Below are positions 692 to 16,734 of a DNA stretch of 20,304 nucleotides, piece after piece. The translations under genes were made by a program, and so were the position numbers. A model generated the notes under the pieces. It saw only the letters and a list, made by a program, of their open reading frames with translations. It was not told where the DNA came from and ran no database searches. Origin of the DNA: Pararhodospirillum photometricum DSM 122 (lineage in GTDB: Bacteria; Pseudomonadota; Alphaproteobacteria; Rhodospirillales; Rhodospirillaceae). How positions within the stretch are numbered: the first letter of the stretch is position 1; each line of letters begins with the position of its first letter. Where the stretch lies: the NCBI RefSeq assembly GCF_000284415.1, contig NC_017059.1:2362962-2383265 (forward strand), read 5' to 3'.

Positions 692-2104
692 ATGACCGAG
701 TTGTTAGAGGCTCTGCAAGAAACGCTGGGGCCGTCGCACGTTCTGACCGGAGCCGAGGCGGCGCCCGCGTTGATTGATCCGTTGGGTCTGTTTCAGGGAC
801 GCGCCCTGGCGGTGGTGCGGCCGGCCGATTCCGGGGAGGTCGCGGCCGTGGTCAGGCTGTGCCGAGACGCTCGTGTTCCCATCGTGCCCCAGGGCGGTAA
901 CACCGGGTTGGTGGGCGCCGCCACTCCCGATGCGAGCGGTCGGGCGGTGGTGCTGTCGTTGGGGAGACTCAACCGGATCCGGGCCATTGATCCCGACAAC
1001 GATACCCTGACCGTCGAGGCCGGCTGCGTTGTCGCCCAGGTTCAGGCGGCGGCCGAGGCGGCCGGACGCCTCTTTCCCCTCAGCTTGGGGTCGGAGGGGA
1101 GTTGCACCATCGGCGGGACCTTGGCCACCAACGCCGGAGGACTCCAGGTCCTGCGTTATGGCACGGCGCGCGATCTTGCCTTGGGCCTGGAGGTGGTGAC
1201 GGCCGAAGGCGAGATCTGGGATGGCTTGCGGGGGTTGCGCAAGGACAATACCGGCTATCGCCTGCGCGATCTTTACATCGGCAGCGAGGGCACCTTGGGT
1301 GTGATTACCGCCGCGACCTTGAAGCTGTTTCCGCGTCCGGCGTCGCGTGCCCTGGCCTTTGTCAGCCTGCCCTCCTTGGAAGCGGCCGTCGCCTTTCTTG
1401 CTCAGGCCCGTCTTCATGTGGACGGGGGGCCCAGCGCCTTTGAGATCATCAGCCGCCCGCTGCTTGATCTGGTGAGCCGCCACGCCCCCGAGGAGCGCCT
1501 GCCGCCCCTGGGGGGTGGCGTTCCCTGGTTCGCTCTGTTGGAGGTTTCCAGCACCACCCCCAAAGAGGGGGCGCGGGCGGTGCTGGAGGAGGTGACAGCG
1601 GCGGCTCTCGACGCCGGCTTGGTGGTGGACGCGGTCGTGGCCCAGGATCTGGCCCAGGAACAGGCCTTGTGGCGTCTGCGCGAGCACGGGCTGGGAGCGG
1701 CCATGGCGCGTCAGGGGCGCACCCTCAAGCACGACGTTTCCCTGCCGCTGTCGCGGATCCCGGCGTTCATGAGCGCGAGCGCCGCAGCGTTGCGTGCCCA
1801 GTTCGGGGCGGTACGGCCCTTGGTGTTTGGTCATCTCGGGGACGGCAACCTGCACTACAACGTCGCCCACGATCCAGCCCAGTCGATCGACCGGTTGGTG
1901 GCGCAGGCCGAGGCGATCCATCAGCTGATCCACGACATGGTTCACGCCCACCAAGGCTCGATCAGCGCCGAGCATGGCATCGGCCAGCGCAAGCGTGATC
2001 AGTTGCCCCGCTACAAGAGCGCGCTGGAACTGAGCCTCATGAGCCGCCTCAAGCAGGCGCTCGACCCTCTGTCCCTCATGAATCCCGGAAAGGTCCTGCC
2101 ATGA
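692..2104 (+). CDS. FAD-dependent D-2-hydroxyacid dehydrogenase (D-2-hydroxyglutarate dehydrogenase / GlcD family)
   Basis: 470 residues, the usual size for the family (FAD_binding_4 then FAD-oxidase_C). It oxidises a D-2-hydroxy acid to a 2-oxo acid, probably passing electrons to a quinone or flavoprotein acceptor. The N-terminal PCMH-type FAD domain has PQGGNTG at residues 66-72, a Gly-Ser-Glu-Gly-Ser segment leading into TNAGG, and GTLGVIT. The C-terminal domain has HLGDGNLH at 381-388 and EHGIG at 427-431, the metal and substrate region of D2HGDH/GlcD enzymes, and ends in NPGKVLP. The ATG at 692 has a GGGAGG Shine-Dalgarno. The same frame is open upstream to 296, but that part overlaps the binding-protein gene and does not look like the family. 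The stop overlaps the next start by four bases (ATGA). The exact substrate is unknown; because the next gene is an aminotransferase, the oxo acid may be converted to an amino acid. Confidence 0.88.
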   Translation: MTELLEALQETLGPSHVLTGAEAAPALIDPLGLFQGRALAVVRPADSGEVAAVVRLCRDARVPIVPQGGNTGLVGAATPDASGRAVVLSLGRLNRIRAIDPDNDTLTVEAGCVVAQVQAAAEAAGRLFPLSLGSEGSCTIGGTLATNAGGLQVLRYGTARDLALGLEVVTAEGEIWDGLRGLRKDNTGYRLRDLYIGSEGTLGVITAATLKLFPRPASRALAFVSLPSLEAAVAFLAQARLHVDGGPSAFEIISRPLLDLVSRHAPEERLPPLGGGVPWFALLEVSSTTPKEGARAVLEEVTAAALDAGLVVDAVVAQDLAQEQALWRLREHGLGAAMARQGRTLKHDVSLPLSRIPAFMSASAAALRAQFGAVRPLVFGHLGDGNLHYNVAHDPAQSIDRLVAQAEAIHQLIHDMVHAHQGSISAEHGIGQRKRDQLPRYKSALELSLMSRLKQALDPLSLMNPGKVLP

Positions 2105-3339
2105 CCGCCTTGTTTCCCGAGCGGCTGGCGCGACGCGCGCGCGGTGCGACCTTGTCGCCCATTGCCCAGGCCAGCCAAAAGGCCGCGCACTTGGCCCAGA
2201 GCGGCCGCCGCATCCTGAGCCTGACCACCGGCGAGCCCGATTTTGATACGCCCGAGCCGATCAAGGAGGCGGCGCGGCGCGCCCTGGCCGCCGGGGCGAC
2301 CAAATATACCCCAACAGCCGGCACCCTGGCCCTCCGCCACGCGGTGGCGGCGAGAGTGGCAGAGGATACCGGTCTTGCCGTCGGTCACGACGAGGTCCTG
2401 ATCTCCAACGGCGCCAAGCAGGCGATCTACACCGCGTTTGCTGCGACCGTGGACGAGGGGGACGCGGTGGTGATCCCGGCGCCGTACTGGCCGACCTTTC
2501 CGGCCAGCGCCCGGATCAACGGTGCCACGCCGGTGATCGTTGAAACCACTCGGGCCACGGGCTTCAAGCTGACCCCGGACCTCCTGGCGGCGGCCCTCTC
2601 GCCCCGCACGAAATGGCTGGTGCTCAATTCCCCAGGCAATCCGACCGGGGCGCTCTACGACGACGAGGAGATCGACGCCCTGGCCCGGGTGCTGCGCGCC
2701 CATCCCGGGGTTTTGGTGCTTTGGGATCAGATCTATGGCCGGATCCGCTTCCAGCCGGGCCCGTCCTGTCCCTGGCTGCGCCAAGCCCCGGATCTCCGGC
2801 CCCGCACCTTGATCATCGACGGCGTCTCGAAAAGCCATGCCATGACCGGGTGGCGCATTGGCTGGGGCGTGGGGCCAGCCCCCTTGATCGCCGCGATGGA
2901 AGCCGTCCAATCCCAGGTGTCGTCCGGTCCCAGCGCCGTGGGCCAGGCGGCGGCGCTGGCCGCCCTTGATCCGGCCGCCGACGTCTTCGTGGACGAGGCC
3001 CGGGCCGTCTATGCCCGCCGCGCCGCTCGGGTGGCCGCAGGGCTGGCGGGGCAGGCCGGCCTCGTGGCCGTCGCTCCGCAGGGCGGCTTTTTCTCGTGGG
3101 TCGATGTGACGGGGCTGTTGGGCCGGCGTACCCCTGAAGGCCGGAGGCTGGACACCGACCAGGACGTCGCCGACTGGCTGCTGGAAGGCCACGGGGTGGC
3201 GGTGGTGGCGGGCGCCGCCCATGGCCAGTCTCCGGCGTTGCGTCTGTCGTTTGCCACCGACGACGCCACCTTGGACGAGGCCCTGGCGCGGATCGCCGCA
3301 GCCGTGGCGTCCCTATTGCCCGAGGAGGATCTTGCATGA
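2101..3339 (+). CDS. Class I/II PLP-dependent aminotransferase (aspartate aminotransferase-like)
   Basis: 412 residues, a fold-type I aminotransferase. The PLP Schiff-base lysine is K244 in SVSKSHAMTGWRIGW, the standard Ser-x-x-Lys...Gly-x-Arg-x-Gly pattern. GNPTG carries N180, which contacts the pyridine O3'. D209 and Y212 in WDQIYGR match the cofactor-binding Asp and Tyr, and R381 in ALRLSFA is the substrate carboxylate arginine. All key residues are intact, so it should be active. It is translationally coupled on both sides by ATGA overlaps (2101-2104 and 3336-3339). Amino donor and acceptor cannot be assigned. The position between a hydroxyacid dehydrogenase and transporter genes suggests interconversion of a 2-oxo acid and an amino acid handled by this transporter. 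Confidence 0.9.
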   Translation: MTALFPERLARRARGATLSPIAQASQKAAHLAQSGRRILSLTTGEPDFDTPEPIKEAARRALAAGATKYTPTAGTLALRHAVAARVAEDTGLAVGHDEVLISNGAKQAIYTAFAATVDEGDAVVIPAPYWPTFPASARINGATPVIVETTRATGFKLTPDLLAAALSPRTKWLVLNSPGNPTGALYDDEEIDALARVLRAHPGVLVLWDQIYGRIRFQPGPSCPWLRQAPDLRPRTLIIDGVSKSHAMTGWRIGWGVGPAPLIAAMEAVQSQVSSGPSAVGQAAALAALDPAADVFVDEARAVYARRAARVAAGLAGQAGLVAVAPQGGFFSWVDVTGLLGRRTPEGRRLDTDQDVADWLLEGHGVAVVAGAAHGQSPALRLSFATDDATLDEALARIAAAVASLLPEEDLA

Positions 3340-4076
3340 GCGACGCTGTGTTGAGCGATCTCGTGGCCCTGCTCAAGACCGTGGGCCTCAATTACGCCTT
3401 TGTGCTTGATGTCAACGACCGGGCCGCTTTCGTGCGCGGCCTGGGGGTCACCGTGCAGCTCTGCCTTGCCTCCTTGCCGCTCAGTTTGGGGGTGGGAGGG
3501 ATCTTGGCCGCCTTTCTTGTCAGTGGCCACCCGGCGCTGGCGGGGGCGGCGCGGGCGTTGGTCGAACTCACCCGCAATACGCCCACCTTGGTGCAGATCT
3601 ACATCGCTTTTTTTGTGGTCAACATGCTGATCCGCGAGACGGCCCCGGCGTTCAGCCATCTGATTGGACCGTTTTCGTGGGTGGTGATCGTGATCTCTCT
3701 GCACAAGGGGGTCTTTCACGCCGAGGCCCTGCGGGCCGGCTTGCAGGCCGTGCCCACCGTTACCCTGGAGGCGGCGCGCTCCCTGGGGCTTTCCCGGTTT
3801 CAGGTTCTGACCCGTGTGCGCTTTCCCCTGGCGCTGCGCTTTGCCTTGCCGGCCTTGGTCAACAACACCGTCGATCTCGTCAAGATGACCGCGCTGGCCT
3901 CGGCCATTGCGGTGGGGGACGTGACCTATGAGGCCATCATGATCTGGTCCCACCGCGACACGGTTTTGGAGTTGATGATCCTTCTTCTTCTCTATTTCGG
4001 CCTCCTGACCTGGATGGTCAGCATGGCGGGCCGCTGGTTGGAAACCCGTTTGAGGATGCACGGTTATGGCCATTGA
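3336..4076 (+). CDS. Amino-acid ABC transporter permease, first subunit (HisM/GlnP family)
   Basis: 246 residues, inner-membrane subunit of a polar amino-acid importer. It shows several hydrophobic segments, the ELTRNTPTLVQIYIAFF segment conserved in His/Glu/Gln-type permeases, and a cytoplasmic EAA loop (LEAARSLGLSRFQVLTRVRF) that docks on the ATPase. The start overlaps the preceding stop by four bases, and the end overlaps the second permease by 11 bases. This is one half of a probable heterodimer. Confidence 0.9.
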   Translation: MSDAVLSDLVALLKTVGLNYAFVLDVNDRAAFVRGLGVTVQLCLASLPLSLGVGGILAAFLVSGHPALAGAARALVELTRNTPTLVQIYIAFFVVNMLIRETAPAFSHLIGPFSWVVIVISLHKGVFHAEALRAGLQAVPTVTLEAARSLGLSRFQVLTRVRFPLALRFALPALVNNTVDLVKMTALASAIAVGDVTYEAIMIWSHRDTVLELMILLLLYFGLLTWMVSMAGRWLETRLRMHGYGH

Positions 4077-4872
4077 TCTGGCGATCCGGGGCTGGCGCTC
4101 CGGGGGGCCGCCGGTGTCGCTACGCGATCCCTGGCTGGCCCTGTTCCTGGGCCTGGGACTGCTGTCCCTGGGGTGGTGGGTGACCGACACCACCCCGGTG
4201 GCGGTGGCCTTTGTTTGGAAATGGGCTCCGGCCCTGGCCCTGGGCATGGGGACCAACATTCAAATCAGTGTGGTCGCCATGGCCCTGGGCACCGTTTTGG
4301 GGTTGGTGATCGGGGTCTTGTCCCTTTCTCCGGGGCGTGGTGTCCGCCTGCTTGCCCGGTGGTATGTGTTGAGCTTTCGCAACGCGCCTTTGTTGGTGCT
4401 GATCTTTTTTACCACCTATGTGTTCCCGTTCGAGATCGTGCTGGGGGCTTGGCGCTTTCCCTTTCCCGACTGGGTCAAGGCAGCCTTGGGCTTGGCCTTG
4501 CCGGCCAGTGCCAACGTTGCCGAGATCTTTCGCGGCGCCATCCAGTCCATTCCCAGCGCGCAGGGCGAGGCGGCTCGTTCCCTGGCCCTCAGTCGTGCCC
4601 AGGTGTTCCGTCTGGTCATCTTGCCGCAGTGCGTGGGACGCATGCTGCCCTCGTGGATGAACCTCTATGCCAGCATCACCATGGGCACGTCTCTGGCGTC
4701 GCTGGTGGGGGTGCACGATGTGGTCCAGGTCGCAACCCAGGCTAGCCACACGGTGCAGCGCGTCGATTGCATCATCATGTCTTACGTCGTCTTGCTGCTG
4801 ATCTTTTTTGTCTACTGCTACCCCCTCTCACGAGTGACACGATACCTGGAGCGCCGCCATGAGCATGCCTGA
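4066..4872 (+). CDS. Amino-acid ABC transporter permease, second subunit (HisM/GlnP family)
   Basis: 268 residues and a paralogue of the preceding permease. It carries SFRNAPLLVLIFF, equivalent to the RNTPTLVQIYIAFF segment of its partner, and an EAA loop (GEAARSLALSRAQVFRLVIL). The N-terminus has an extra hydrophilic stretch of about 20 residues before the first membrane segment. The start lies 11 bases inside the first permease gene, and the gene ends 14 bases inside the ATPase gene, so expression is coupled. Confidence 0.9.
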   Translation: MAIDLAIRGWRSGGPPVSLRDPWLALFLGLGLLSLGWWVTDTTPVAVAFVWKWAPALALGMGTNIQISVVAMALGTVLGLVIGVLSLSPGRGVRLLARWYVLSFRNAPLLVLIFFTTYVFPFEIVLGAWRFPFPDWVKAALGLALPASANVAEIFRGAIQSIPSAQGEAARSLALSRAQVFRLVILPQCVGRMLPSWMNLYASITMGTSLASLVGVHDVVQVATQASHTVQRVDCIIMSYVVLLLIFFVYCYPLSRVTRYLERRHEHA

Positions 4873-5695
4873 GCCGGTGGAGGCGCTGTCTCCTGAAACC
4901 CCCCTGGTTTCCTTGCACAATGTCCATTTGTCCTTTGGCGACACCGAGGTGCTGCGCGGCATCACGATGGAGGTCTTTCGTGGACAGGCGGTGTCGGTGA
5001 TTGGTCCGTCGGGATCGGGTAAGTCATCAATCTTGCGCTGCATCACGGGGCTGTTGCGGCCCCAACGCGGCGAGATCCTGGTTGACGGTTTTGACGTCCA
5101 GTCCCTGAAGGCCGAGGCCGACCTGATCGCCCTGCGCAAGCGGGTTGGGTTCGTGTTTCAGCAGTACAACCTGTTTCCCCACCTCAGTGTTTTGGAGAAC
5201 CTGATTTTGGCCCCTGTCCATGCGGTGGGGATCAGCCGGCAGGAGGCGCGGGCCCGGGCGCGCGCTCTGCTGGCCAAGGTGCATCTGGAAGACAAGGAAA
5301 ATGCCTATCCCGGCCAGTTGTCCGGCGGCCAGCAACAACGCGTCGCTATTGCCCGCGCCTTGGCCATGCGCCCGGACCTGATCTTGTTCGACGAGGTGAC
5401 CTCGGCCCTGGATCCCGAGACGGTGGGCGAGGTCCTGGGGGTGATCCGGGAACTGGTGGAGGACGGCATGACCTGTGTCCTCGTCACCCATGAAATGGCG
5501 TTTGCCCGCGAAGTCAGCGATCAGGTCTATTTCACCGAGGGCGGCCGCATCGTGGAATCTGGTCCTCCGGAGCGGTTGTTCACCGATCCTCGGTGCGAAC
5601 GAACCCGGGTCTTTTTACGCCGGGGGGTGGGGCAGGCGGCGCCCCGGCCGCCGCTTGTCTTTGCCCCCACCGGGGAGGGGGAGCGCTTGGCATGA
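4859..5695 (+). CDS. Amino-acid ABC transporter ATP-binding protein (GlnQ/HisP family)
   Basis: 278 residues; the cytoplasmic ATPase that powers the importer. Visible motifs are Walker A GPSGSGKS (49-56), a Q-loop in VFQQYNLFPHL, the signature LSGGQQQ (154-160), Walker B LILFDE (174-179) with the D-loop SALD, and the switch histidine H211 in VTHEMAF. It is longer than typical GlnQ (about 240) because of an N-terminal leader of about 15 residues and a Pro-rich C-terminal tail. A second ATG lies six bases inside and could be the real start. Its stop codon overlaps an ATG at 5692 in the ATGA arrangement used elsewhere in this operon, which bears on the start of the next gene. Confidence 0.92.
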   Translation: MSMPEPVEALSPETPLVSLHNVHLSFGDTEVLRGITMEVFRGQAVSVIGPSGSGKSSILRCITGLLRPQRGEILVDGFDVQSLKAEADLIALRKRVGFVFQQYNLFPHLSVLENLILAPVHAVGISRQEARARARALLAKVHLEDKENAYPGQLSGGQQQRVAIARALAMRPDLILFDEVTSALDPETVGEVLGVIRELVEDGMTCVLVTHEMAFAREVSDQVYFTEGGRIVESGPPERLFTDPRCERTRVFLRRGVGQAAPRPPLVFAPTGEGERLA

Positions 5696-5735
5696 CGGAC
5701 TCTTCGCGTTTTGACTCCCCCATCTTCAGACCACC
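5692..5735 (+). other. Apparent original start of the cystathionine-lyase gene, out of frame by one base
   Basis: The ATG at 5692 overlaps the ATPase stop (ATGA) and has a purine-rich GGGGAGGGGGAG upstream. Its frame reads 15 codons and stops at 5737-5739. The downstream enzyme frame, read backwards from 5736, gives Leu-Gln-Thr-Thr before Leu-Ile-His-Thr-Gly, which looks like a genuine family N-terminus, and closes at a stop at 5712-5714. The two frames would join if the C5 run at 5717-5721 had one more C (equivalent to a -1 slip). This is either a sequencing or mutational loss of one C, or ribosomal slippage. Confidence 0.6.
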
Positions 5736-6875
5736 TTGATCCATACTGGTGCCCCGGCTGTCGGTCCGGTCAATGTTCCGGTCGTGCGCACCAGCACGGT
5801 ACGCTTTCCCGATACCGAGACCTATGCCGCCCAGCATCATCGCCGGGCGGCCGGAGAGCGGGTCGCCACCTACGGCCGTCATGGCACCGAGACCCACCGC
5901 GCCCTGGAGGCGGCAGTCTGCGCGCTGGAAGGGGGGCACGAGAGCTTTCTCGCGCCGTCCGGCCTTTCGGCGATCGTCATGGTGTTTCTCGGGCTCTTGT
6001 CGGCGGGAGACCACGCGCTGGTCGCCGATAACGTCTATGCTCCGGTTCGGCGCACGGACAAGGCCCTGTTGCAGCGCTTTGGCATCACGGTGGACTACTT
6101 TCGCCCGGGCCGTGAGCCCCTGGCCCAGCTTGTGCGGCCCAACACGCGGCTGGTTTATCTGGAATCCCCGAGTTCCTTGTTGTTTGAGGTGATTGATCTG
6201 CCGGCCCTGGCCCAGGAAGCCCGGGCCCTTGGCCTGATCGTGGCTGTGGACAATACCTGGAGCGGGGGACTGTTTTATCGTCCCTTGTCCCTGGGTGCCC
6301 ATCTGAGCGTGCAGGCCGCGACCAAATACTTGGCCGGACACTCGGATGTCATGCAAGGGGTGGTCACCGTAGACTCCCCGGCGTTGGGGCAGCGGATCCA
6401 GGCGGCCTATGATGCCCTGGGGCTGTCGGTCGGCGCCGACGATGCCTATTTGGTGCTGCGGGGGGTGCGGACCTTGGAGGTGCGCCTAACCCGCCATTTC
6501 GCCAATGCCCTCCAGGTCGCCGAGGCCCTGGCCGGTCATCCGGCGGTCGCCCGGGTTTATTATCCGGCCTTGCCGTCCGACCCGGGCCATGCCGTGTGGC
6601 GCCGTGATTTCACGGGAGCGTCCGGGTTGGTGTCTTTTGCGCTGCGTTCCCCCGATCCCTCGGCCGGGGCGCGGGTGATTGATGCCTTGGCGTTGTTTGG
6701 GCTGGGGGCCTCGTGGGGCGGCTATGAAAGCCTTGCCTTGGAAGCCGCGCCCGAACGGCTGGCGGAGCATGGCTGTTGGGACCGGGCCCCGGGCGCCGTG
6801 ATCCGCCTGCATGTCGGCCTGGAACATCCTCAAGATCTAATCGCCGACGTGGAACAGGCATTGCGCCGCCTTTGA
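5736..6875 (+). CDS. metC: Cystathionine beta-lyase-like PLP enzyme (MetC type), start probably frameshifted
   Basis: 379 residues from a TTG at 5736; with the out-of-frame start at 5692 repaired it would be about 394. It belongs to the Cys/Met metabolism PLP family and would cleave the C-S bond of cystathionine, or a related thioether, to homocysteine, pyruvate and ammonia. MetC-type features are YGRHGTETHRALE near the N-terminus, the cofactor aspartate in VDNTWSGG, the PLP lysine K197 in ATKYLAGHSDVMQG, and the WGGYESLALEA segment near the C-terminus, close to the MetC WGGFESL motif. The TTG has no Shine-Dalgarno. The gene is last in the transporter operon, suggesting that the imported amino acid is a thioether or disulfide such as cystathionine or cystine (inference). 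It converges on the minus-strand MetY-like gene with 51 bases between them. Confidence 0.82.
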   Translation: MIHTGAPAVGPVNVPVVRTSTVRFPDTETYAAQHHRRAAGERVATYGRHGTETHRALEAAVCALEGGHESFLAPSGLSAIVMVFLGLLSAGDHALVADNVYAPVRRTDKALLQRFGITVDYFRPGREPLAQLVRPNTRLVYLESPSSLLFEVIDLPALAQEARALGLIVAVDNTWSGGLFYRPLSLGAHLSVQAATKYLAGHSDVMQGVVTVDSPALGQRIQAAYDALGLSVGADDAYLVLRGVRTLEVRLTRHFANALQVAEALAGHPAVARVYYPALPSDPGHAVWRRDFTGASGLVSFALRSPDPSAGARVIDALALFGLGASWGGYESLALEAAPERLAEHGCWDRAPGAVIRLHVGLEHPQDLIADVEQALRRL

Positions 6876-6926: not shown

Positions 6927-8105
6927 TCACACGGTCTTCAACGCCTGAAGAAGATCGCCGGCCACGTCGTCGGCATGCTCCAGGCCGACCAGAACCACCA
7001 CCCGCGGCGCCGGCAGGGCAAAGAGACATGCCGCGCTGCGGGCGCCGCCTAGGGTGGGGCGAGCCTGGATCAGGGTCAGCGCTGCGAGAAAAGCCTGAGC
7101 CTGCGTTTTCGTGGCAAAATCCAGGCCCACCAAAGCGCCCGGAGTGCGTCGAACTCCGGTCAAGGCCGGGTGGCCCTCCAGGGCCTCGGCGAGGTATGCG
7201 GCGGTCGCTGCCTGGGCCGGAACCCGTAGCGGTAGGGTTTCCACCCCTTGCAAAAGCTGGAAGGCGGCCAGGGGGCTGATCGCCGCCCCAAGATCGCGCA
7301 AGGGATTGCCCCGCGCCCGGGCGGTGTAGGGCGAGGCCTGCCAGGGGCGCACCACATCGGTCCACACCGCGCCGTGGTAGGACGGGTCGGGGGTGTTGAG
7401 CGCCGGCACGCGCTCGGGCCGGGCTTCCCAGGCGAGGGCGCCGGTGTCGAGTAACAGCCCTCCGGCTGTGGTGTCCGAGCCGCTCAGGACCTCAGCGGCC
7501 GAATAGACCACCACGGCGGCCCCGTCGTCACCCGGCCTGACGGTGAGCGGCAGAAAGGTGTTGTCGATGATCACCGGGATGCCCTCGGCCTGGGCGGCCA
7601 CAGCGCGCACGGGAAAGAGCTCAAGCCGGGGCAGGCTCAGGCTTTCGGCCACCCAGGCCCGGGTGGAGGCGTCGCTTAGGCGGGCGAAACTGGCGGGATC
7701 ACTTGGGTCCGCCCAGCGCACATGCAGGCCGAAGCGCTCTAAGGTGCCGGGCAGGCAGGCATGAGGTCCGGTGCCGAGATCGCGCGACACCACCACCGAG
7801 TCCCCTCGACCGGCCAGGGTGAGGACGGCGTTGAGGAGGGCGGCCGCCCCGGTGGCGACAGCCAGGGCCGCCTTAGCGCCCTCGACGGCGCTTACCCGCC
7901 GTTCCAGGAACTCTCGGGTGGGATTGATGGTGCGGGTGTAGGTATAGCCCACCTCCTTGAGGGCAAACAGCCGGGTGGCGTGGTCGGTGTCGCGAAACTG
8001 GTAGGAGGTGGTCTGGTAGACCGGCGGCGTGACCGCCAGGGTGGCCGGGTCAGCACGAAAGACGCCGCCGTGCAGGGCCAGGGTTTCAAGGTGAGGGCGG
8101 GACAT
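6927..8105 (-). CDS. MetY-like trans-sulfuration family protein lacking the PLP lysine (probable pseudoenzyme)
   Basis: 392 residues from the ATG at 8105, which has GGAG six bases upstream; a TTG at 8132 is possible but adds residues unlike the family. The N-terminus (ETLALHGG, then TPPVYQTTSYQF, then YTYTRTINPT) matches O-acetylhomoserine/O-acetylserine sulfhydrylases. The cofactor aspartate of IIDNTF (D181) is kept. At the lysine position the family SATK...GG block reads SAAEVLSGSDTTAGG, with glutamate at residue 205 (codon GAG, plus-strand 7491-7493). The PLP-stacking Tyr of the LYGGT segment is replaced (DLGTGPH), and the arginine expected before the C-terminal VGLE is a valine. It is therefore unlikely to form the internal aldimine. 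It may be a regulatory or structural relic, or use altered chemistry. It is the last gene of a minus-strand unit, 33 bases after the cupin gene. Confidence 0.85.
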   Translation of the reverse strand: MSRPHLETLALHGGVFRADPATLAVTPPVYQTTSYQFRDTDHATRLFALKEVGYTYTRTINPTREFLERRVSAVEGAKAALAVATGAAALLNAVLTLAGRGDSVVVSRDLGTGPHACLPGTLERFGLHVRWADPSDPASFARLSDASTRAWVAESLSLPRLELFPVRAVAAQAEGIPVIIDNTFLPLTVRPGDDGAAVVVYSAAEVLSGSDTTAGGLLLDTGALAWEARPERVPALNTPDPSYHGAVWTDVVRPWQASPYTARARGNPLRDLGAAISPLAAFQLLQGVETLPLRVPAQAATAAYLAEALEGHPALTGVRRTPGALVGLDFATKTQAQAFLAALTLIQARPTLGGARSAACLFALPAPRVVVLVGLEHADDVAGDLLQALKTV

Positions 8106-8138
8106 GGCACGCTCCAGGCCAGAGAGGACCAAAGGGGA

Positions 8139-8762
8139 TCAGGCCGGGGACTCGGCCCAAACCGAGGGGGATTGGATGTCCCCGCTCCAGGTGTACAGAG
8201 CCAGCAAGGGCTCGGTCCCTGTGCGCATGGCGTGCACCGCCTGGGACGGATGAAGGATAAAGGCGCCTGGTGGGGGCTCGGTGGTGAGGCCCTCCCCCCA
8301 CCAGAGCGCGTGCCCAGCCAGCACCAGGTACACCTCGACCGCCGGGTGACGATGGGGCAGGTAGTGGGTGTTGGGCCCGATCACGGTCAGGCCCAGGCAG
8401 ATGGACGAACTGAGGAACGGGGCCTCGGGGCCGACCAGTTCGGCCCAGCCCATGCGGTTTTCCAGGCCCGGCGCATCGGAACGCGGGGCATAGCCGTAGC
8501 GCCAGGGCAGGTGCGGGCCGATAATCCGAAGCACCCCCGCCAGATCGGGATCGCCGACGTCGGCCAAGGCGGCATCCAGGATCGGACCGAGAGGGGAGGG
8601 GGACTGGGGCCACGGCCGGGGAGAGTTCCCGACATGGTCCAGTCCGGCCTCGATCCGCTGGATCTCCGCCGCCACCGCGTCGCCCCGCCCCCGGCCGGCC
8701 CGCAGATGGCGCCACAGCAGGGCCAGAAGCTGGCGCAGCAAGACGGCGTCGCGCGGGGTCAT
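8139..8762 (-). CDS. DMSP-lyase-family cupin (DddL/DddQ-like)
   Basis: 207 residues. The C-terminal half is a metal-binding cupin: G129...H137-x-H139-x3-E143-x6-G150 fits cupin motif 1, with neighbouring Y134 and Y145, and a second motif has PPPG (163-166) followed by H171 and H177. The block LGLTVIGPNTHYLPHRHP, followed by Ala-Val-Glu-Val-Tyr and an Ala-Leu-Trp-Trp end, resembles the DMSP lyase family, whose members use a bound metal and a Tyr base to split dimethylsulfoniopropionate into DMS and acrylate. The N-terminal helical part and the ENRMGWAELVGPE segment are also DMSP-lyase-like. The start overlaps the methyltransferase stop by four bases. Family assignment is from recall; the substrate may be another sulfonium or thio compound. 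A different organosulfur cupin is known in Rhodospirillum (methylthioxylulose-5-phosphate methylsulfurylase), which is an alternative. Confidence 0.72.
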   Translation of the reverse strand: MTPRDAVLLRQLLALLWRHLRAGRGRGDAVAAEIQRIEAGLDHVGNSPRPWPQSPSPLGPILDAALADVGDPDLAGVLRIIGPHLPWRYGYAPRSDAPGLENRMGWAELVGPEAPFLSSSICLGLTVIGPNTHYLPHRHPAVEVYLVLAGHALWWGEGLTTEPPPGAFILHPSQAVHAMRTGTEPLLALYTWSGDIQSPSVWAESPA

Positions 8763-9736
8763 GGCCGCCTCGCGTGCAGGACCGCCACGGTGTGGCCGAG
8801 GGGCTCGCCGTGGCGCACGAGGTCACGGGCTGCCGCCGCGCTGAGGCGGTGGGGCTGAAGCTTGCGTTCGAAGGCCAAGGCGTTGGTTCCGGCATCGGCC
8901 GGATCCACGCCGTCAAAGATCGTCTCCAAAACCCGGGCTGGGTAGAAGTGGAAGGGGCCCAGGCCCTGGCGCTCCCACGCGGCGTAGGCACCGACCAGAT
9001 CCTCGGGGTCGGTTTGGAGCTTCCAGCCGTAAGTCAGGAAATCCGCCGTGTACCCGGCCGCCTCCGCCATCGCCAAAACGGTGGACAAGGGCATGCGGGC
9101 CCCCAAGGTGGCGACAAACGCGCCCGAGGGACTGAGCAGCGGGCCCGCCTGGATCAGGGCGAGAAAGTGCAAGACGAGCAGGGCGTTTTGCACAAACCCC
9201 GGGACCGGTTCGGGGCGGGGCGGCACGAAGGCGGCGCTGTTGCGGCCGTCCTCCAGGCGCATCCCCTCGACCAGGGGAAGGTTGGGGAGGTTTTCAAAAA
9301 TAATGTCGTAGCGCTCCGGCCGGTCGCGCAGCGGCGCCAGGAGATCCCCCGCCCCCGCCACCACCCGCAGCGGATGCTCGGGCCGGGTGTTGCGCTCAAC
9401 GTTGCCGACGGCGGCGCGGACCACATCGTCGAACAGATCGGTGAGGCCAAGCGTTTCGGCCCCCAGGATCTCGATCGCCGCCAAGGCATCGAGACCCGCG
9501 CCGGTGCCCAGCGCGCAGAAAGAGCGGCAGTGCTCCGCACCCCGGCGCGCGCGCAGCAGGCGAAACGCCGGGACCGCGATGCTGGCCACCCAATCGCGCC
9601 GGGGGTCGTCGAGGGCCGGCAGGAAGGCGCGTGCGGCCAGTTCCAGGTGGAGGGGGGCTCGCACACGGACCGGGGTCGTGTCACCGAAGGTGTTCCGGCT
9701 CTCCACCGTGAGGAGGGGGAAGGGGGAAGAGTTCAT
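8759..9736 (-). CDS. SAM-dependent methyltransferase resembling the methionine S-methyltransferase N-domain (MmtN-like)
   Basis: 325 residues, a class I Rossmann methyltransferase. Motif I is FCALGTGAGLDALAA (73-87), the motif II acidic residue is D100 in LTDLFDD, and the motif IV position reads DIIFENLPNLP (144-154), like the NPP/IPQ loop of amino- and thioether-methylating enzymes. The second half carries LGARMP, then YGWKLQTDPEDLVGAYAAWE and GPFHFYP, which recall the conserved tail of plant MMT and bacterial MmtN (Gln-Thr-Lys...Asp-Thr-Asp-x-x-x-Leu and an aromatic-rich end). Those enzymes make S-methylmethionine. This is recognition by eye, not an alignment. It is the first gene of the minus-strand unit, with GAGGA upstream, and is coupled to the cupin by an ATGA overlap. 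An N-, C- or O-methyltransferase role cannot be excluded. Confidence 0.65.
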   Translation of the reverse strand: MNSSPFPLLTVESRNTFGDTTPVRVRAPLHLELAARAFLPALDDPRRDWVASIAVPAFRLLRARRGAEHCRSFCALGTGAGLDALAAIEILGAETLGLTDLFDDVVRAAVGNVERNTRPEHPLRVVAGAGDLLAPLRDRPERYDIIFENLPNLPLVEGMRLEDGRNSAAFVPPRPEPVPGFVQNALLVLHFLALIQAGPLLSPSGAFVATLGARMPLSTVLAMAEAAGYTADFLTYGWKLQTDPEDLVGAYAAWERQGLGPFHFYPARVLETIFDGVDPADAGTNALAFERKLQPHRLSAAAARDLVRHGEPLGHTVAVLHARRP

Positions 9737-9882: not shown

Positions 9883-10560
9883 ATGACGTATGACGATGAG
9901 GGGGCGGGTCAGGGGCTCAGTTGCGCCGATTGCCGCCAATTGCACTGCCATCGCCACGACAAACGCTATCCCGGCTTTTGTCCGACCGAGAGCTTGGATC
10001 CACACGAGCGTGAAGACTTGGTGGATCTGTACAGTAGTGATGGACCCGATGGACGGCTGGCCCGCGCGGCGGCGGAAGTGGAAGGGGCGTATTATGGTAA
10101 GCTCACCCGGGTCGAAGAAACCGTGGCCTTTGCCCGGCGCTTGGGCGTGACGCGCATCGGCATCGCCAGTTGCTTGGGGTTGATCGAGGAAACCCGGGTT
10201 TTGGTGCGTATCATCAAGTTGGCGGGCTTTGAAACTGTGGCCGCCCTGTGCAAGGTGGGCTCGGTTGACAAGACCGAGATCGGGATCCCCGAGACGCTTA
10301 AGATCAAGCAGGGGGGCTTCGAGGCCTGTTGCAATCCGGTCTTGCAAGCACGCCTGCTCAATCGGGAAAACACGGGGCTAAACATCATCATGGGCCTGTG
10401 CGTCGGCCATGATGCCCTGTTTTGCCGCCACGCCGAGGCGCCCACCACCACCTTGGTCGTCAAGGACCGGGTGCTGGGCCACAATCCCGTGGCTTGTCTT
10501 TACACCGTGGGCACCTACAGCGCCCGCCTGCTTGATGAATCCCGCCTGCGCACCCTTTAA
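9883..10560 (+). CDS. DUF1847 family Cys-rich, probably metal-binding protein
   Basis: 225 residues with 11 cysteines (14, 17, 22, 33, 97, 123, 149, 150, 173, 181, 205). The N-terminus has CADCRQLHC and then FCPT, a zinc- or Fe-S-like cluster of cysteines with histidines. The body holds ASCLGL, CKVGSVDK, EACCNP and GLCVGHDALFCRHAEAP, the pattern I associate with DUF1847, whose biochemical role is unknown. The ATG at 9883 has AAGGAG six bases upstream; the open frame starts further up at 9760, but those codons look non-coding. It is divergent from the methyltransferase unit and followed by a terminator, so it is probably monocistronic. The conserved cysteines suggest a metal- or thiol-dependent function; no more can be said from sequence. 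Confidence 0.75.
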   Translation: MTYDDEGAGQGLSCADCRQLHCHRHDKRYPGFCPTESLDPHEREDLVDLYSSDGPDGRLARAAAEVEGAYYGKLTRVEETVAFARRLGVTRIGIASCLGLIEETRVLVRIIKLAGFETVAALCKVGSVDKTEIGIPETLKIKQGGFEACCNPVLQARLLNRENTGLNIIMGLCVGHDALFCRHAEAPTTTLVVKDRVLGHNPVACLYTVGTYSARLLDESRLRTL

Positions 10561-10784: not shown

Positions 10785-11933
10785 ATGTGCGATTGCGGCG
10801 TTGACTTTGCCCTTCACCATCTTGAAGAAACCCGGGCGAAAGGCCTGCGGGGCATCGGCTGCGATCTCAGCTTGGACCGGCGCAGCCTGCTCAAGGGAGT
10901 TGCCGCCGGCCTGCTCGCCGCCTCCTTGCCCAGCGCCCTGGCCACCCCGGCCCGGGCGGCGGAGTCTGGCCGCTTTCGCGTCGGCTTCATTGCCGAGCCG
11001 GCGCACGGCCTGCACTTCCTGGCCAAGGAGAAGGGCTACTTTCGCGACCAAGGGCTGGACGTCGAGCTTTCCCAGTTCAAGTCGGCGGGCGAGGGGGTGA
11101 TCGCCCTCAAGGCCGGGCAACTCGACATCGGCACCTTTGGCTCGGCCGCGCCGCTCCTTTACATCTCGCAAGGGGTGCCCTTCACCATCTTCGGCGGCAT
11201 GATGATCGGCGGCCAAGCCATCATCACCCGCCCCGAGCGGCTGGAAGAACTGAAATCCCTGGAGAACTACCGGGGGAAAAAGGTGGCGCTGGTGCGCTTG
11301 TCCACGGGCGACGTGGTGTTCCGCCTCGCCCTGAAAAAGGCCGGCCTCGACCCCCGCCAGGACTTCACCCGCCTGGAGTTTCCCTCGCCCGGCACGGTGG
11401 TCGAGGCGGTTTTGAAAGGGGAGGTGGACGCGGGCATCGTGTTCTCCCCCCACTTCTCGCTGGCCGAAAAGCGGGGGCTGGCGGTAGCCCACTTCATTGC
11501 CGACTTCCACCCGAATTACACCTGCTGCCGCCTGACCGCTAACACCGCCGATTTCCAGCAGCGCCCGGACGAGTACGGCCGTTTCCTCACCGCCCTGATC
11601 CAGGCCTACCGCTTCTATCGCACCAACCCGGACGAGACGGTGCGCATCTTCACCGACGCCCTTAAAATTGACGAAGACGTGATTCGCAAGGACACCTACA
11701 CGCGCAAAGTCTTCGATTCCAACCCCGACCCCTTGCGCAAGGGCACGCTGGAGTTCTGGCAGGCCATGGTCGATGCTGATTTCGTGGCCAACAAGGGTTA
11801 TCCGGTCGGCGACCACATCAATACCAGCGTCTACAAGACCGCCTTGGATGCCGTTACCGCCACAGCGCCGCAAGACCCCGTGTGGGCCGAGATGCAGGCC
11901 TACTTCAGCGCCAACAACACGGAACGGGGATAG
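10785..11933 (+). CDS. ABC transporter substrate-binding protein, nitrate/sulfonate/taurine type, Tat signal
   Basis: 382 residues. A twin-arginine signal (D31-R-R-S-L-L-K-G, then a hydrophobic stretch and ARAA near 57-60) directs it folded to the periplasm. The mature part starts RVGFIAEP...HFLAKEKGYFRDQGLDVEL, typical of the NMT1/SsuA-like family that binds sulfonates, taurine, nitrate or thiamine precursors. GEGVIALKAGQLDIGTFG is the first-lobe loop of that family. Before the Tat motif there is an unusual extension of about 30 residues with Cys at 2, 4 and 26; AAGAGGTG upstream of the ATG at 10785 supports this start, so the extension looks real. It is first in a three-gene transport operon. 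The ligand is not readable; organosulfur is plausible from the neighbourhood. Confidence 0.85.
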   Translation: MCDCGVDFALHHLEETRAKGLRGIGCDLSLDRRSLLKGVAAGLLAASLPSALATPARAAESGRFRVGFIAEPAHGLHFLAKEKGYFRDQGLDVELSQFKSAGEGVIALKAGQLDIGTFGSAAPLLYISQGVPFTIFGGMMIGGQAIITRPERLEELKSLENYRGKKVALVRLSTGDVVFRLALKKAGLDPRQDFTRLEFPSPGTVVEAVLKGEVDAGIVFSPHFSLAEKRGLAVAHFIADFHPNYTCCRLTANTADFQQRPDEYGRFLTALIQAYRFYRTNPDETVRIFTDALKIDEDVIRKDTYTRKVFDSNPDPLRKGTLEFWQAMVDADFVANKGYPVGDHINTSVYKTALDAVTATAPQDPVWAEMQAYFSANNTERG

Positions 11934-11935
11934 CG

Positions 11936-12898
11936 ATGAGCGGAGTCTTGGAGCAAGGTCTGACTTGGCGCGGCTGGCGCTGGGTGGTGCGGGAGGGGAA
12001 AACCCTCCCGACCTTTCCGCATGCGGTGTTCCTGGCCGGAGTGGCCGCGTTGATGTGGCCCACGGCGGAGGCGCCGCCTTGGCGGGTTTTGACCCTCATC
12101 ACCCTTATCGACGCGGGTGTGCTGGCGGCCGGGCTGACGGCGCGGCGTCCCGAGATCCGGGTGGCGGCCGGCGATGTTGGGGTGGTGTTATTCGTGCTGC
12201 TGCTGGCTTGGCACGGCGTCACGGCGTGGGCCGGGCTGGTCGATCCGCTGCTCATCCCGGCGCCCGAGGTCATCTTGGCCCTCTTCGTCGCCGAACTGCC
12301 CGACATGACGGCCGGCTTATGGGGATCCTTGGCCCGCCTGGGCCTGGGGGTTGGCCTCGCCCTGGTCACCGCCATCCCCTTGGGCCTGATCGTCGGCTGG
12401 AACCGCCGCTTGTTTCGCGCTGTGCACCCTTTCACCAAGGTCCTGGGGACCATTCCCCCGGTGGTGTACATCCCCTACGCCATCCATTTCCTGCCATCGT
12501 TCAAGCTGGCGGCTATTTTGGTGGTATTCGTTGGCGCGTTCTGGCCGCTGTTTATCAATACCCTACGCGGTGTTGCTCATATTCCCGGCCCGGTGATTGA
12601 TGCCGCGCGTGTATTGACCTTGCGGCCGGTTCCCTTGCTGCTGCGGGTCATCCTCCCGGCCACCTTACCGTCGATCTGCACCGGCGCCACCTTGGCCTTG
12701 TGCTTTTCGTTCCTGATGCTGACGGCGGCCGAGGTGATTGGCGGCAGTTCAGGGATTGGCTGGTACGTCAACAACTTTGCGGATTTCGCCGACTATCACC
12801 GGGTGATCGTTGGCATCTTGTTCATTGCCCTGGTGGTGAGTGTCGTGACCTGGGGCACCGAGCGCCTGGAACGTCGCTTGCTGCGCTGGCACCGGTGA
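11936..12898 (+). CDS. ABC transporter permease (SsuC/TauC family)
   Basis: 320 residues, an inner-membrane permease of the nitrate/sulfonate/taurine class. The core (GSLARLGLGVGLALVTAIPL, then GTIPPVVYIPYAIHF, then an EAA-type loop around VIDAARVLTLRPVPLLLRVI) is typical of SsuC/TauC. It is longer than the usual 250-270 residues because of two extra hydrophobic segments in about the first 100 residues. It starts two bases after the binding-protein stop; the same frame is open upstream to 11882, but that part overlaps the binding-protein gene. It ends 14 bases before the ATPase start. Confidence 0.88.
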   Translation: MSGVLEQGLTWRGWRWVVREGKTLPTFPHAVFLAGVAALMWPTAEAPPWRVLTLITLIDAGVLAAGLTARRPEIRVAAGDVGVVLFVLLLAWHGVTAWAGLVDPLLIPAPEVILALFVAELPDMTAGLWGSLARLGLGVGLALVTAIPLGLIVGWNRRLFRAVHPFTKVLGTIPPVVYIPYAIHFLPSFKLAAILVVFVGAFWPLFINTLRGVAHIPGPVIDAARVLTLRPVPLLLRVILPATLPSICTGATLALCFSFLMLTAAEVIGGSSGIGWYVNNFADFADYHRVIVGILFIALVVSVVTWGTERLERRLLRWHR

Positions 12899-12912: not shown

Positions 12913-13710
12913 ATGCTCAGTGTGCGCGTTGAGGGGGTCAGCTTTGCCCACGGGGCCCAAACGGTGCTGCGCGACATTCATCTCGCGGCGCGTCCGGGCG
13001 AGTTCGTGTGTCTGCTCGGCCCCTCGGGCTGCGGCAAAAGCACCTTGTTGCGCTTGCTGGCCGGTCTGGAGCGCCCGGATCGCGGCCGTATCTTGGTCGA
13101 TGGTCGTCCGATCAAGGGGCCGGGCCTCGATCGGGCGGTGGTCTTTCAGGACTATTCGCTGTTCCCTTGGCTGAGTGCCGGGGAGAACGTCTTGATGGCC
13201 GTGCGTCAGGCCTTTCCCGACCGCTCGCGCGCCTTCCACCACGAAACGGCCCGCGCCCATCTGGCGCGGGTTCATTTGGAGGACGCGTTCGACAAAATGC
13301 CGGCCCAGTTGTCGGGCGGCATGCGCCAACGGGCCGCCATCGCCCGCGCCCTGGCGCAAGATGCCCCGGTCCTGCTGATGGACGAGCCCTTCGGCGCCCT
13401 GGACGCGGTGACCCGCACCGTGTTGCAAGATCAGTTGCTGGAGCTGTGGCAAGGCGAAGGCCAGGAAGAGCCCCAGCGCAAGACGGTGTTCTTCGTGACC
13501 CACGATGTTGAGGAAGCCTTGCTGCTGGCGACCACGGTGGTGGTGATGGGGACCCGCCCGGGGACCATCAAGGGGGTGTTCGCCATCGACTTGCCGCGTC
13601 CGCGCGTGCGCCGGTCCTTGTATCCCACCGTGACCTTCCAGACCCAGCGTCAAGCGTTGGTCGATCTTCTGCACCAGGGCTTGCCGCTCGACGCGGACCG
13701 GGCCGCCTGA
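12913..13710 (+). CDS. ABC transporter ATP-binding protein (SsuB/TauB family)
   Basis: 265 residues; the ATPase of the preceding importer. It shows Walker A GPSGCGKS (36-43), the Q-loop and DYSLFPWL segment typical of SsuB/TauB/NrtD, the signature LSGGMRQR (from 133), Walker B LLMDEPFGALD with D157/E158, and the switch histidine in VTHDVEEA. GAGAGAGGAGG upstream of 12913 is a strong ribosome-binding site. The frame is open upstream to 12700 inside the permease gene, which is not coding. It is the last gene of the operon, and a terminator follows about 60 bases downstream. Confidence 0.92.
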   Translation: MLSVRVEGVSFAHGAQTVLRDIHLAARPGEFVCLLGPSGCGKSTLLRLLAGLERPDRGRILVDGRPIKGPGLDRAVVFQDYSLFPWLSAGENVLMAVRQAFPDRSRAFHHETARAHLARVHLEDAFDKMPAQLSGGMRQRAAIARALAQDAPVLLMDEPFGALDAVTRTVLQDQLLELWQGEGQEEPQRKTVFFVTHDVEEALLLATTVVVMGTRPGTIKGVFAIDLPRPRVRRSLYPTVTFQTQRQALVDLLHQGLPLDADRAA

Positions 13711-14338: not shown

Positions 14339-15841
14339 ATGATTTTGCACACTGTTCGCCCCGTTCGCTCGGAGGAAGGCCTGCCGCGCGACCAGCAACT
14401 GGCTTGGAAGATGGCCGAGGTCGCCGCCGATCCCACCCCGGTGGAGCCCGAGGTGGTGGAAATGATCATCAATCGGGTGATCGACAATGCCGCCGTCGCC
14501 GTGGCGTCGCTGGCCCGCCGCCCGGTGATCAACGCCCGGGCGCAGGCGGTTGCGCATCGTACCGCGCCGGGGGCTACGGTCTTCGGTTTGCCTTCGTCCA
14601 CCCGGGTGACGCCGGCCTGGGCCGCCTGGGCCAATGGGGTGGCGGTGCGTGAACTGGACTACCACGATACCTTTTTGGCCGCCGACTACTCCCACCCCGG
14701 TGATAACATCCCGCCGGTGCTCGCGGTGGCCCAGCATTGCGGCCGCTCGGGCAACGACCTCGTGCGCGGGTTGGCCACGGCCTACGAGATCCAGGTCAAT
14801 CTGGTGAAGGGCATTTGCCTGCATAAGCACAAGATCGACCACATCGCCCACCTTGGCCCCTCGGCGGCGGCGGGGATTGGCAGCCTGCTGGGGCTGGATC
14901 CGGCTGTGACCTTCCAGGCCATCGGTCAGGCCCTGCACGTGACCACCACCACGCGCCAGTCGCGCAAGGGCGAGATCTCAAGCTGGAAGGCCTATGCCCC
15001 GGCGTTTGCCGGCAAAATGGCCATCGAGGCCGTGGACCGGGCCCTGCGTGGCGAAGGCTCCCCCAACCCGATTTACGAAGGCGAAGACGGCGTGCTGGCC
15101 TGGATGCTTGATGGCCCCGGCGCTGTCTACACCGTGCCGCTGCCGGCGCCGGGCGAGCCCAAGCGCGCTATCTTGGAAACCTACACCAAGGAGCACTCGG
15201 CCGAGTACCAGAGCCAAGCCCTGATTGATCTGGCGCGGCGCCTGGGGCCCCGGGTCGGCGATTTCGAGCAGGTCCAGTCCATCGTCATCCACACCAGTCA
15301 CCACACCCATTACGTGATCGGCACCGGAGCCAACGACCCGCAAAAGCTGGACCCTCGGGCCAGCCGCGAGACCCTGGACCACTCGATCATGTACATCTTT
15401 GCCGTGGCTTTGCAGGACGGCGGCTGGCATCACGAGCGCTCCTATGCCCCCGAGCGCGCCGCCCGGCCCGACACCGTGCGCCTGTGGCACAAGATCACCA
15501 CCCTCGAGGATCCCGCGTGGACCCGGCGCTACCACGCCACCGATCCGGCGGAAAAGGCCTTCGGCGGGCGGGTCGTGGTGACGTTGGCCGATGGCCGGGT
15601 GCTGGAAGACGAAATCGCGGTGGCCGATGCCCATCCCCTGGGCGCTCGTCCCTTTGCCCGTGCGCAGTACATCGCCAAGTTCCGCACCCTGGCCGAGGGC
15701 ATTGTGGCGCCTTCCGAGCAAGAGCGCTTCCTGGCGGCGGCGCAGCAGATCACCGCGCTGGAGCCCGGCGACCTCGGCGGCCTCACCGTATGCGTCGATC
15801 CCGCCCAGTTGGGCGCGGCGCCGGGGCGGGGGCTGTTCTGA
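14339..15841 (+). CDS. prpD: 2-methylcitrate dehydratase (PrpD, MmgE/PrpD family)
   Basis: 500 residues, close to the usual 480-490. It dehydrates 2-methylcitrate to 2-methyl-cis-aconitate in the methylcitrate cycle. Conserved family blocks include [21 protein letters not shown] (acidic residues and His near the active site), [34 protein letters not shown] and [26 protein letters not shown] precedes the ATG at 14339. Its stop overlaps the prpB start by one base (TGATG), so the two are translationally coupled. No aconitase-type AcnD is present in the window, consistent with the PrpD-dependent version of the pathway. Confidence 0.93.
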
Positions 15842-16734
15842 TGCTGCACGCGCGCACGTCTGTTCAAGACCGGCGCCGGCGTCTGCGGGCCGGCCTTGCC
15901 TCCGGAAACCTGCTGCGCCTGCCCGGGGCCTTCTCGCCCCTGGTGGCCCGAGAGATCGAGGCCCAGGGGTTCGAGGGAGTGTACATCTCGGGGGCGGTGT
16001 TGGCCGCTGACCTTGGTCTCCCCGACATCGGCCTCACCACCTTGACCGAAGTCGCCCAGCGCGGCCACCAGATCGCCCGGGTGACCAACCTCCCGGCCCT
16101 GATCGACGCCGACACCGGCTTCGGCGAGCCGATGAACGCGGCGCGCTGCGTTCAGGTGCTAGAGGACCTGGGGCTGGCCGGCTGCCACCTGGAAGATCAG
16201 GTCAACCCCAAGCGCTGCGGCCATCTTGATAACAAGGCCGTGGTCCCGACCAGCGAGATGGTGCGCCGCCTCAAGGCCGCCGTCTCGGCCCGGCGCGATC
16301 CCGACTTCGTGCTGTGCGCCCGCACCGATGCCCGCGCGCTGGAGGGGCTAGACGGCGCCATCGCCCGCGCCCAGGCCTACGTGGATGCCGGCGCCGACCT
16401 GATTTTTGCCGAGGCTCTCGCCGACGAACGCGAGATCGAGGCGTTCCGTCGTGCCGTGTCGGCGCCGTTGCTCATCAACATGACCGAGTTCGGCAAGTCC
16501 CGGCTGCTGCCGGCCGACACCCTGCGCAACCTCGGGGTCAATGTGGTGATCTACCCGGTCACCACTTTGCGCCTCGCCATGGGCGCCGTCACCGCTGGTC
16601 TCGCCACCGTGAAGGCGGCGGGAACCCAAGAGAGCTTGCTCGACGCCATGCAGCACCGCAAGGACCTCTACCGGCTCCTGGCCTACGAGGAATATGGCGT
16701 CTTTGACGAGAATGTTTTCAATTTCAAGGTGTAG
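15841..16734 (+). CDS. prpB: 2-methylisocitrate lyase (PrpB)
   Basis: 297 residues, isocitrate-lyase/PEP-mutase superfamily. It splits 2-methylisocitrate into pyruvate and succinate. The superfamily motif is KRCGH with catalytic C126. DADTGFGEP holds metal-binding aspartates, LEDQ the following acidic residue, and CARTDARA and NMTEFGKS are PrpB-like. The start at 15841 shares a base with the prpD stop; the open frame runs upstream to 15484 inside prpD, but that part is out of frame with prpD and not coding. A pair of inverted palindromic elements separates it from prpC. Confidence 0.93.
   Translation: MLHARTSVQDRRRRLRAGLASGNLLRLPGAFSPLVAREIEAQGFEGVYISGAVLAADLGLPDIGLTTLTEVAQRGHQIARVTNLPALIDADTGFGEPMNAARCVQVLEDLGLAGCHLEDQVNPKRCGHLDNKAVVPTSEMVRRLKAAVSARRDPDFVLCARTDARALEGLDGAIARAQAYVDAGADLIFAEALADEREIEAFRRAVSAPLLINMTEFGKSRLLPADTLRNLGVNVVIYPVTTLRLAMGAVTAGLATVKAAGTQESLLDAMQHRKDLYRLLAYEEYGVFDENVFNFKV

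Follow-up and report, generated by a model that had tools for sequence, protein, structure and literature searches.

A conserved methyltransferase–cupin gene pair in Pararhodospirillum photometricum as a candidate route for sulfur release from methylthio compounds

Several described systems, cited here from excerpts of the papers concerned, come close to a three-gene locus that we analysed in Pararhodospirillum photometricum DSM 122, in which the gene for an S-adenosylmethionine (SAM)-dependent methyltransferase (hereafter MT) is followed by genes for a cupin and for a protein of the sulfhydrylase family. The methionine S-methyltransferase MmtN binds SAM and methionine through Cys121, Glu127, Arg132 and Glu250 (methionine through the last three), and for Group II enzymes an identity with known MmtN of about 30% or above is reported (PMC9135737). 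The active site of DddQ, a lyase of dimethylsulfoniopropionate (DMSP), comprises Tyr120, His123, His125, Glu129, Tyr131 and His163 (PMC4437653). Anaerobic methionine salvage ends in a sulfhydrylase step (PMC5893883) and has as its known input 2-(methylthio)ethanol derived from 5′-methylthioadenosine (PMC5893883, PMC12552129); methylthio-alkane reductase (Mar; structure 9fmg) converts dimethyl sulfide (DMS) to methanethiol in vivo (PMC12552129). Type 1 mlp gene clusters combine UroD-type methyltransferases, a corrinoid protein and an activase, and their non-selenium clade comes with MetY, CysK and Mar (Kountz and Balskus, PMC10418091). The locus lies in a 20,304-base stretch (the window; bases 2362962-2383265 of the 3,876,289-base single-contig genome). 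Its MT and cupin probably constitute an uncharacterised route that cuts sulfur out of methylthio compounds, and no description of the pair was found in the open-access literature (titles, abstract openings and passages; most subscription papers lay outside this scope).

The methyltransferase–cupin pair

A preliminary description, made from the sequence of the window alone, had noted that MT and cupin overlap by 4 bases and that the third gene begins 33 bases beyond the cupin stop, both of which are borne out by the coordinates, and had proposed a gene-neighbourhood survey, in which the gene order proved to be conserved. The best 80 of 116 MT relatives in GTDB genomes, together with the window, gave 81 MT loci (locus L001, a duplicate of the window, is not counted; L018 and L020 represent the same strain). 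A cupin gene accompanies the MT in 58 of the 81, on the same strand in all 58, with a gap of less than 50 bases in 56 and of exactly -4 in 18. This arrangement is not a matter of chance; the two genes form a conserved module. Hosts of the pair belong to Pseudomonadota, Fibrobacterota, Verrucomicrobiota, Acidobacteriota, Myxococcota and Bacillota and, judged by their names, many come from soil, gut or freshwater. The 23 loci that lack the cupin carry in its place a gene resembling cystathionine synthase (CBS) or CysK (14 loci) or neither (9). In the MT tree (trees were quick, with some weak forks), the 14 CBS-like rows and four rows with neither gene form one clade of 18 (marked 95*), from Streptomyces and others; 57 of the 58 cupin rows and five rows with neither make up a set of 62, and the 58th cupin row, L024, stands beside the 18-row clade. 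Many Streptomyces loci (L010, L014, L016, L036 and others) show a methyl-cycle cluster that is unexplained: the MT starts a run of CBS-like gene, EamA transporter, second methyltransferase and SAM synthetase, often with a PfkB kinase and methylenetetrahydrofolate reductase (MTHFR) added, and MtnB-like and acireductone dioxygenase (ARD) genes lie divergently.

At E ≤ 0.001 neither Pfam nor NCBIfam had a match for the MT; at E ≤ 1 its single Pfam match was PrmA (0.016), at residues 72-149, the SAM core. A homologue search recovered at least 125 proteins (8000 candidates scored). The single sequence did not match MmtN. A profile built from 22 homologues and searched against the PDB placed MmtN (7vvv) first, weakly (E 0.001), with chains of the release-factor and L11 methylase type following at 0.006 and above, in line with the earlier suggestion of a putative S-methyltransferase. 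Profile–profile alignment (hhalign) gave 94.2% probability over 227 columns against 20 MmtN relatives and 95.4% over 246 columns, reaching the C-terminus, when all 81 MTs were aligned with 120 MmtN relatives, versus 75.6% over 90 columns of the N-terminal half for an unrelated class I methyltransferase of the Streptomyces loci used as control. The MT shares with MmtN and plant MMT the GxGxG SAM motif and, beyond it, invariant LP[NQ] and G-x-R motifs, a later Gln and a C-terminal His. Identity in the profile alignments is, however, 20-23%, below the Group II level, and the residues Cys121, Glu127, Arg132 and Glu250 of MmtN are not conserved: the place of Cys121 is taken by an invariant Asn149, no acid is conserved at either Glu place, and Arg160 of the window MT aligns with Arg132 at a position that varies in other family members. 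Nor is a cupin partner described for MmtN in the excerpts of PMC9135737. Judged by these alignments, the MT belongs to a sister-type family of MmtN and is not itself an MmtN. Assignment as an rRNA or protein methylase was rejected, the PrmA and HemK-type matches being weak and confined to the SAM core.

The cupin matches PF16867 (DMSP_lyase) at 2.8e-24 (86.1 bits, cut-off 27) and no NCBIfam family; the top solved structures are the DMSP lyases 4b29 and 5cu1 and DddQ chains. The earlier reading of it as DMSP-lyase-like thus holds, with no non-sulfur cupin family matching better. The six DddQ active-site residues are in register with Y134, H137, H139, E143, Y145 and H177, which are invariant in all 58 MT-linked cupins. 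For comparison we took eight of the best-scoring family members from other alphaproteobacteria (L111-L118), with no MT in the stretch. An Asp at position 96 occurs in 55 of the 58 MT-linked cupins versus none of the eight unlinked ones and neither of two DddQ sequences; in the set compared, this residue and the position directly behind an MT distinguish the linked cupins from DddQ. The two DddQ fragments branch outside all 66 other cupins in a quick tree with long branches that included neither DddL nor DddW. The unlinked cupins sit mostly without sulfur genes around them (by eye), and L118 may sit among one-carbon genes. Fibrobacter, Butyrivibrio and Oxalobacter are strict anaerobes, and their presence among the hosts speaks against an O2-using cupin.

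The third gene and methylthio-alkane reductase

The third gene product belongs to the sulfhydrylase family (PF01053, 200 bits; TIGR01326, 294.7 bits, under the cut-off of 495.1) and has a Glu at the position of the lysine that forms the Schiff base with pyridoxal phosphate (PLP). This lysine is present in 58 of 66 family members of the MT loci and replaced in eight (Glu 4, Thr 2, Ser 1, Ala 1), those of the window and of L002, L003, L004, L006, L013, L042 and L074. The eight are also altered at a conserved Tyr, Asn, Asp and C-terminal Arg, and keep the Tyr and Arg of the Y-x-R motif, which we take to contact the cofactor phosphate of the neighbouring subunit in the sulfhydrylase fold. They form one clade (the tree's 'noK' count of two changes is inflated by row L088_G000, a duplicate of the window's lysine-less sequence), sister to lysine-bearing sulfhydrylases that directly follow in four Rhodoblastus loci and include one in the genome of P. 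photometricum itself (L084), about 49 kb away, in whose locus no mar genes were seen in the gene list by eye. The third gene may encode a non-catalytic subunit, a heteromer with the lysine-bearing paralogue being the simplest reading; an ordinary sulfhydrylase or methionine gamma-lyase was rejected because the catalytic lysine is missing.

The P. photometricum genome encodes 12 nitrogenase-like component matches in six pairs. NCBIfam named ten; the remaining pair (L106/L107), which fit no equivalog, is the organism's own MarD and MarK, scoring 1038.7 bits against 9fmg_A and 888.3 bits against 9d9u_C, the latter sequence being present in 9fmg as well. These genes lie outside the window, in a marBHDK cluster at about 3.76 Mb in which the MarH-like and MarB-like genes were recognized by eye. 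In four of the 81 loci (L002, L006, L007 and L042; two Magnetospirillum and two Rhodopseudomonas), mar genes occur within 10 kb of the MT; within the same distance, L066 has a NifE-like gene only. The L002 locus of Magnetospirillum fulvum reads marK-D-H-B, a small gene and DUF1847, then divergently MT, cupin and lysine-less sulfhydrylase, and in L042, some 5 kb from the MT, marDK comes after the lysine-less gene.

We also searched for MarD in the genomes of 49 of the 80 loci (E ≤ 1e-80; a match in G400 at 7.5e-42 was not counted). A homologue was present in 13 of 39 cupin-linked genomes versus none of ten genomes of the clade with the PLP enzyme (Fisher p 0.045, inflated by shared ancestry); ten of the 13 show at least 54% identity and three 36-46%. 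Among alphaproteobacteria, 8 of 17 cupin-linked genomes encode MarD compared with 0 of 371 genomes in a draw from the class (E ≤ 1e-40, own genome left out). Within 199 genomes of the order, five have the MT, four MarD and three both (p 3e-5, again inflated by shared ancestry).

Layout of the window and neighbouring genes

Features of the window are listed in Table 1. Gene clusters (c numbers) were checked for their family on one member each.

Table 1 Genes of the module and its surroundings (positions in the window)
Feature	Position	Strand	Size or family evidence	Remark
MT: class I SAM-dependent methyltransferase, MmtN-like, own family	8759-9736	-	325 aa	Predicted thioether-sulfur methylation
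Cupin (Pfam DMSP_lyase)	8139-8762	-	207 aa	Predicted metal-dependent sulfonium lyase
Third gene: lysine-less O-acetylhomoserine sulfhydrylase paralogue	6927-8105	-	PF01053; TIGR01326 under cut-off	
DUF1847 gene	9883-10560	+	PF08901 2e-59	Divergent from MT
NMT1/SsuA-like ABC substrate-binding protein	10785-11933	+	PF13379/PF09084; TIGR01728 under cut-off; cluster c5	
ABC permease	11936-12898	+	Cluster c7; BPD_transp_1 on L012 member	Transporter of 10785-11933; own start call
ABC ATPase	12913-13710	+	Cluster c3; ABC_tran on L065 member	Transporter of 10785-11933; own start call
FAD-linked oxidase-like gene, perhaps 2-hydroxyacid oxidase	692-2104	+	Cluster c22; FAD_binding_4 and FAD-oxidase_C on L046 member	Peripheral
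Class I/II aminotransferase	2101-3339	+	PF00155 1.1e-70; cluster c8	Peripheral; comes after 692-2104
Cystathionine-beta-lyase-like PLP enzyme	5736-6875	+	TIGR01324 386 bits (cut-off 366)	Peripheral; convergent with module

Across the loci, the pair's neighbours include sulfhydrylase, MetNIQ, corrinoid methyl-sulfur and mar genes, and in 34 of the 58 cupin loci a PLP gene of cysteine and methionine metabolism lies flush with the pair (≤250 bases, same strand). The NMT1-type binding protein (c5), whose transporter genes in the window, like DUF1847, lie divergent from the MT, recurs in 18 of the 81 loci and the FAD-linked oxidase (c22) in six (the window and five others). DUF1847, which starts at 9835 in our own gene call, 98 bases from the MT, is found in ten loci and adjoins the MT in five; it may belong to methyl-sulfur metabolism. 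A methyltransferase cluster of the MtaA/CmuA type appears in six loci, four of which (L011, L022, L035 and L081) also have corrinoid-protein and RACo clusters and so contain all three kinds of gene named above for Type 1 mlp clusters, present in part in L012 and L051. Unlike these loci, the mlp clusters come without mention of a cupin, DMSP, a sulfonium or DUF1847 in the main text of PMC10418091. The preliminary description had taken the methyltransferase–cupin pair for a candidate sulfonium module, and none of the three outcomes that it had named as refuting this was obtained. A sulfonium or volatile-sulfur role fits these neighbours; the third gene, lacking its lysine, is no ordinary enzyme. 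The observation is confirmed and its interpretation partly supported.

FAD-linked oxidase-like, aminotransferase, ABC and cystathionine-beta-lyase-like genes belong to a plus-strand set convergent with the third gene; the nearest tree row to the last of these is an MT neighbour in Siculibacillus (L005). The aminotransferase corrects the earlier statement that the window holds no transaminase; the same statement on a decarboxylase and an aldehyde dehydrogenase stands for the ten window proteins that were family-searched, the other genes having been judged by eye or cluster. A rhodanese-like protein (by eye; L097:17100-18602) is divergent from a sulfur-looking plus-strand run at 4-6875 of the window, which includes solute-binding proteins. 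A further plus-strand run at 14339-18029, near the module, contains a PrpD-like gene (NF042438, 903 bits, cut-off 950) followed by genes that resemble, by eye, methylisocitrate lyase and methylcitrate synthase. Clusters c22 and c8 near the MT were first taken for PrpD and PrpC; Pfam identified them as FAD-linked oxidase and aminotransferase, which places the methylcitrate-type genes (14.3-18.0 kb) outside the conserved set, as far as the clusters show. A tandem repeat at 20007-20303 (126-base unit, 2.4 copies, 94% match) almost reaches the end of the window.

A proposed route and its alternatives

We propose, with a probability of about one-half, that the pair is a methylate-then-eliminate module in which the MT makes a sulfonium, the cupin eliminates DMS from it and the sulfur is recaptured to methionine. 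With SAM as methyl donor, the MT would act on the sulfur of a small, methionine-related methylthio acid and so install a good leaving group in the resulting dimethylsulfonium compound, and the cupin metal would bind the carboxylate and eliminate DMS to leave an unsaturated acid. Candidate substrates are 3-methylthiopropionate, which would give DMSP and be cleaved to acrylate, and methionine, which would give S-methylmethionine and be cleaved after conversion to the 2-oxo acid. Lyase chemistry on the methionine product would work best on the 2-oxo acid, a route in which the aminotransferase and oxidase genes that accompany the MT at some loci would find a function. Action of the cupin on S-methylmethionine itself, as entertained in the preliminary description, is not supported, given that the methionine-binding residues are unconserved in the MT family and that a DMSP-lyase-type elimination from S-methylmethionine is chemically awkward. 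Mar (in P. photometricum and some relatives) or corrinoid methyltransferases (elsewhere) would convert the DMS to methanethiol, from which a sulfhydrylase would make methionine; the third gene would contribute a lysine-less subunit, a probable partner of the lysine-bearing sulfhydrylase about 49 kb away. Such a route would resemble anaerobic salvage with Mar, near whose genes the pair lies in the Magnetospirillum and Rhodopseudomonas loci, and differ from it in that separate methylation and elimination steps would supply the DMS. More tentatively, we suggest that the whole represents an undescribed, widely transferred salvage, in which SAM would be spent to form a sulfonium, the cupin would eliminate DMS without O2, and a nitrogenase-like reductase or corrinoid enzymes would recapture the sulfur together with a sulfhydrylase, in some hosts a heteromer of catalytic and lysine-less subunits.

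Several observations weigh against this proposal. The methionine-binding residues of MmtN have no conserved counterpart in the MT family, and the six active-site residues of the cupin are kept in all eight unlinked cupins too; they are therefore not proof of DMSP-type cleavage and appear, from this comparison, to mark the family and not the substrate. In the second MT clade a PLP enzyme usually replaces the cupin, and some hosts may accordingly form a product other than a DMSP-like acid. MarD was not found at E ≤ 1e-80 in 26 of the 39 cupin-linked genomes (many of them draft metagenome-assembled genomes), two of the five MT genomes in the order are without it, and in G528, a relative from the same genus as P. 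photometricum, MarD occurs but the MT does not. Common descent confounds the enrichment of Mar, and some genomes enter both the order search and the locus-genome search: judged by coordinates, G605 and G614 seem identical to G389 and G385 (those of L006 and L002), and the tests are accordingly not independent. The corrinoid activase (RACo, PF14574) had no match in the P. photometricum genome, a further difference from Type 1 mlp clusters, and matched one of 14 control genomes. Riboswitches were absent ahead of the MT gene in the 30 sources searched, namely the window plus 29 of the 80 loci; the sole SAM_alpha element lies in L046, in front of a different gene of the sulfhydrylase family. Release of DMS would, moreover, waste sulfur wherever no recapture enzyme exists.

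Among the alternatives, the pair might serve methyl disposal and the balance of methionine and SAM: the MT would make S-methylmethionine, draining SAM to homocysteine and then, by reverse transsulfuration, to cysteine, while removal of the product falls to the cupin or the CBS-like partner and DMS arises as a by-product. The CBS/CysK-like gene (c4) of 24 MT loci, directly behind the MT in 14, the SAM synthetase cluster of 17 loci, MetI directly upstream of the MT in eight and the MTHFR, ARD and MtnB-like genes of the Streptomyces loci would all suit this explanation, and S-methylmethionine cycles are proposed for hosts of Group II MmtN in the excerpts of PMC9135737. Such a cycle, however, needs no DMSP-lyase-type cupin, no homocysteine S-methyltransferase was found among about 30 annotated clusters, and the linkage to Mar points to recapture of a methyl sulfide; we consider it unlikely.

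It is likewise doubtful that the cupin is a helper or some other metal cupin and not a sulfonium lyase, with the MT methylating a thiol or other acceptor in methionine salvage. Profile searches (E ≤ 1e-10) of 385 alphaproteobacterial genomes recovered DMSP_lyase-type cupins in 51 and the MT in one, that of P. photometricum itself, and the eight unlinked cupins keep the active site in contexts mostly, by eye, without sulfur genes; the function of such cupins may be less well established than their Pfam name implies. Against this stand the strict operon pairing, the kinship of the MT with MmtN and the methyl-sulfur neighbours.

Quite improbable is a third possibility, in which the methyl acceptor of the MT is a cysteine thioether (S-methylcysteine or cystathionine) and the cupin, or the CBS-like PLP enzyme in Streptomyces and others, removes the sulfide by beta-elimination or replacement: the alternation of cupin (58 of 81) and beta-replacement-type PLP enzyme (14 of 81) behind the MT, largely in two MT clades, would be explained, and Asp96 could hold the amino group, but that role for Asp96 is a guess, and the PLP gene, found after the cupin as well in L011 and L012, may simply encode a conventional cystathionine synthase.

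If the methylate-then-eliminate proposal is true, the pair would represent a non-marine source of DMS based on a DMSP-lyase-type enzyme and, through Mar, a source of methane, and would assign a function to the DMSP-lyase-type cupins of soil, rumen, termite-gut and freshwater bacteria. The C–S bonds of methylthio compounds would be broken without oxygen, supplying Mar with DMS for the formation of methanethiol and methane. The third gene and its lysine-bearing paralogue would offer a testable pseudoenzyme pair in methionine synthesis.

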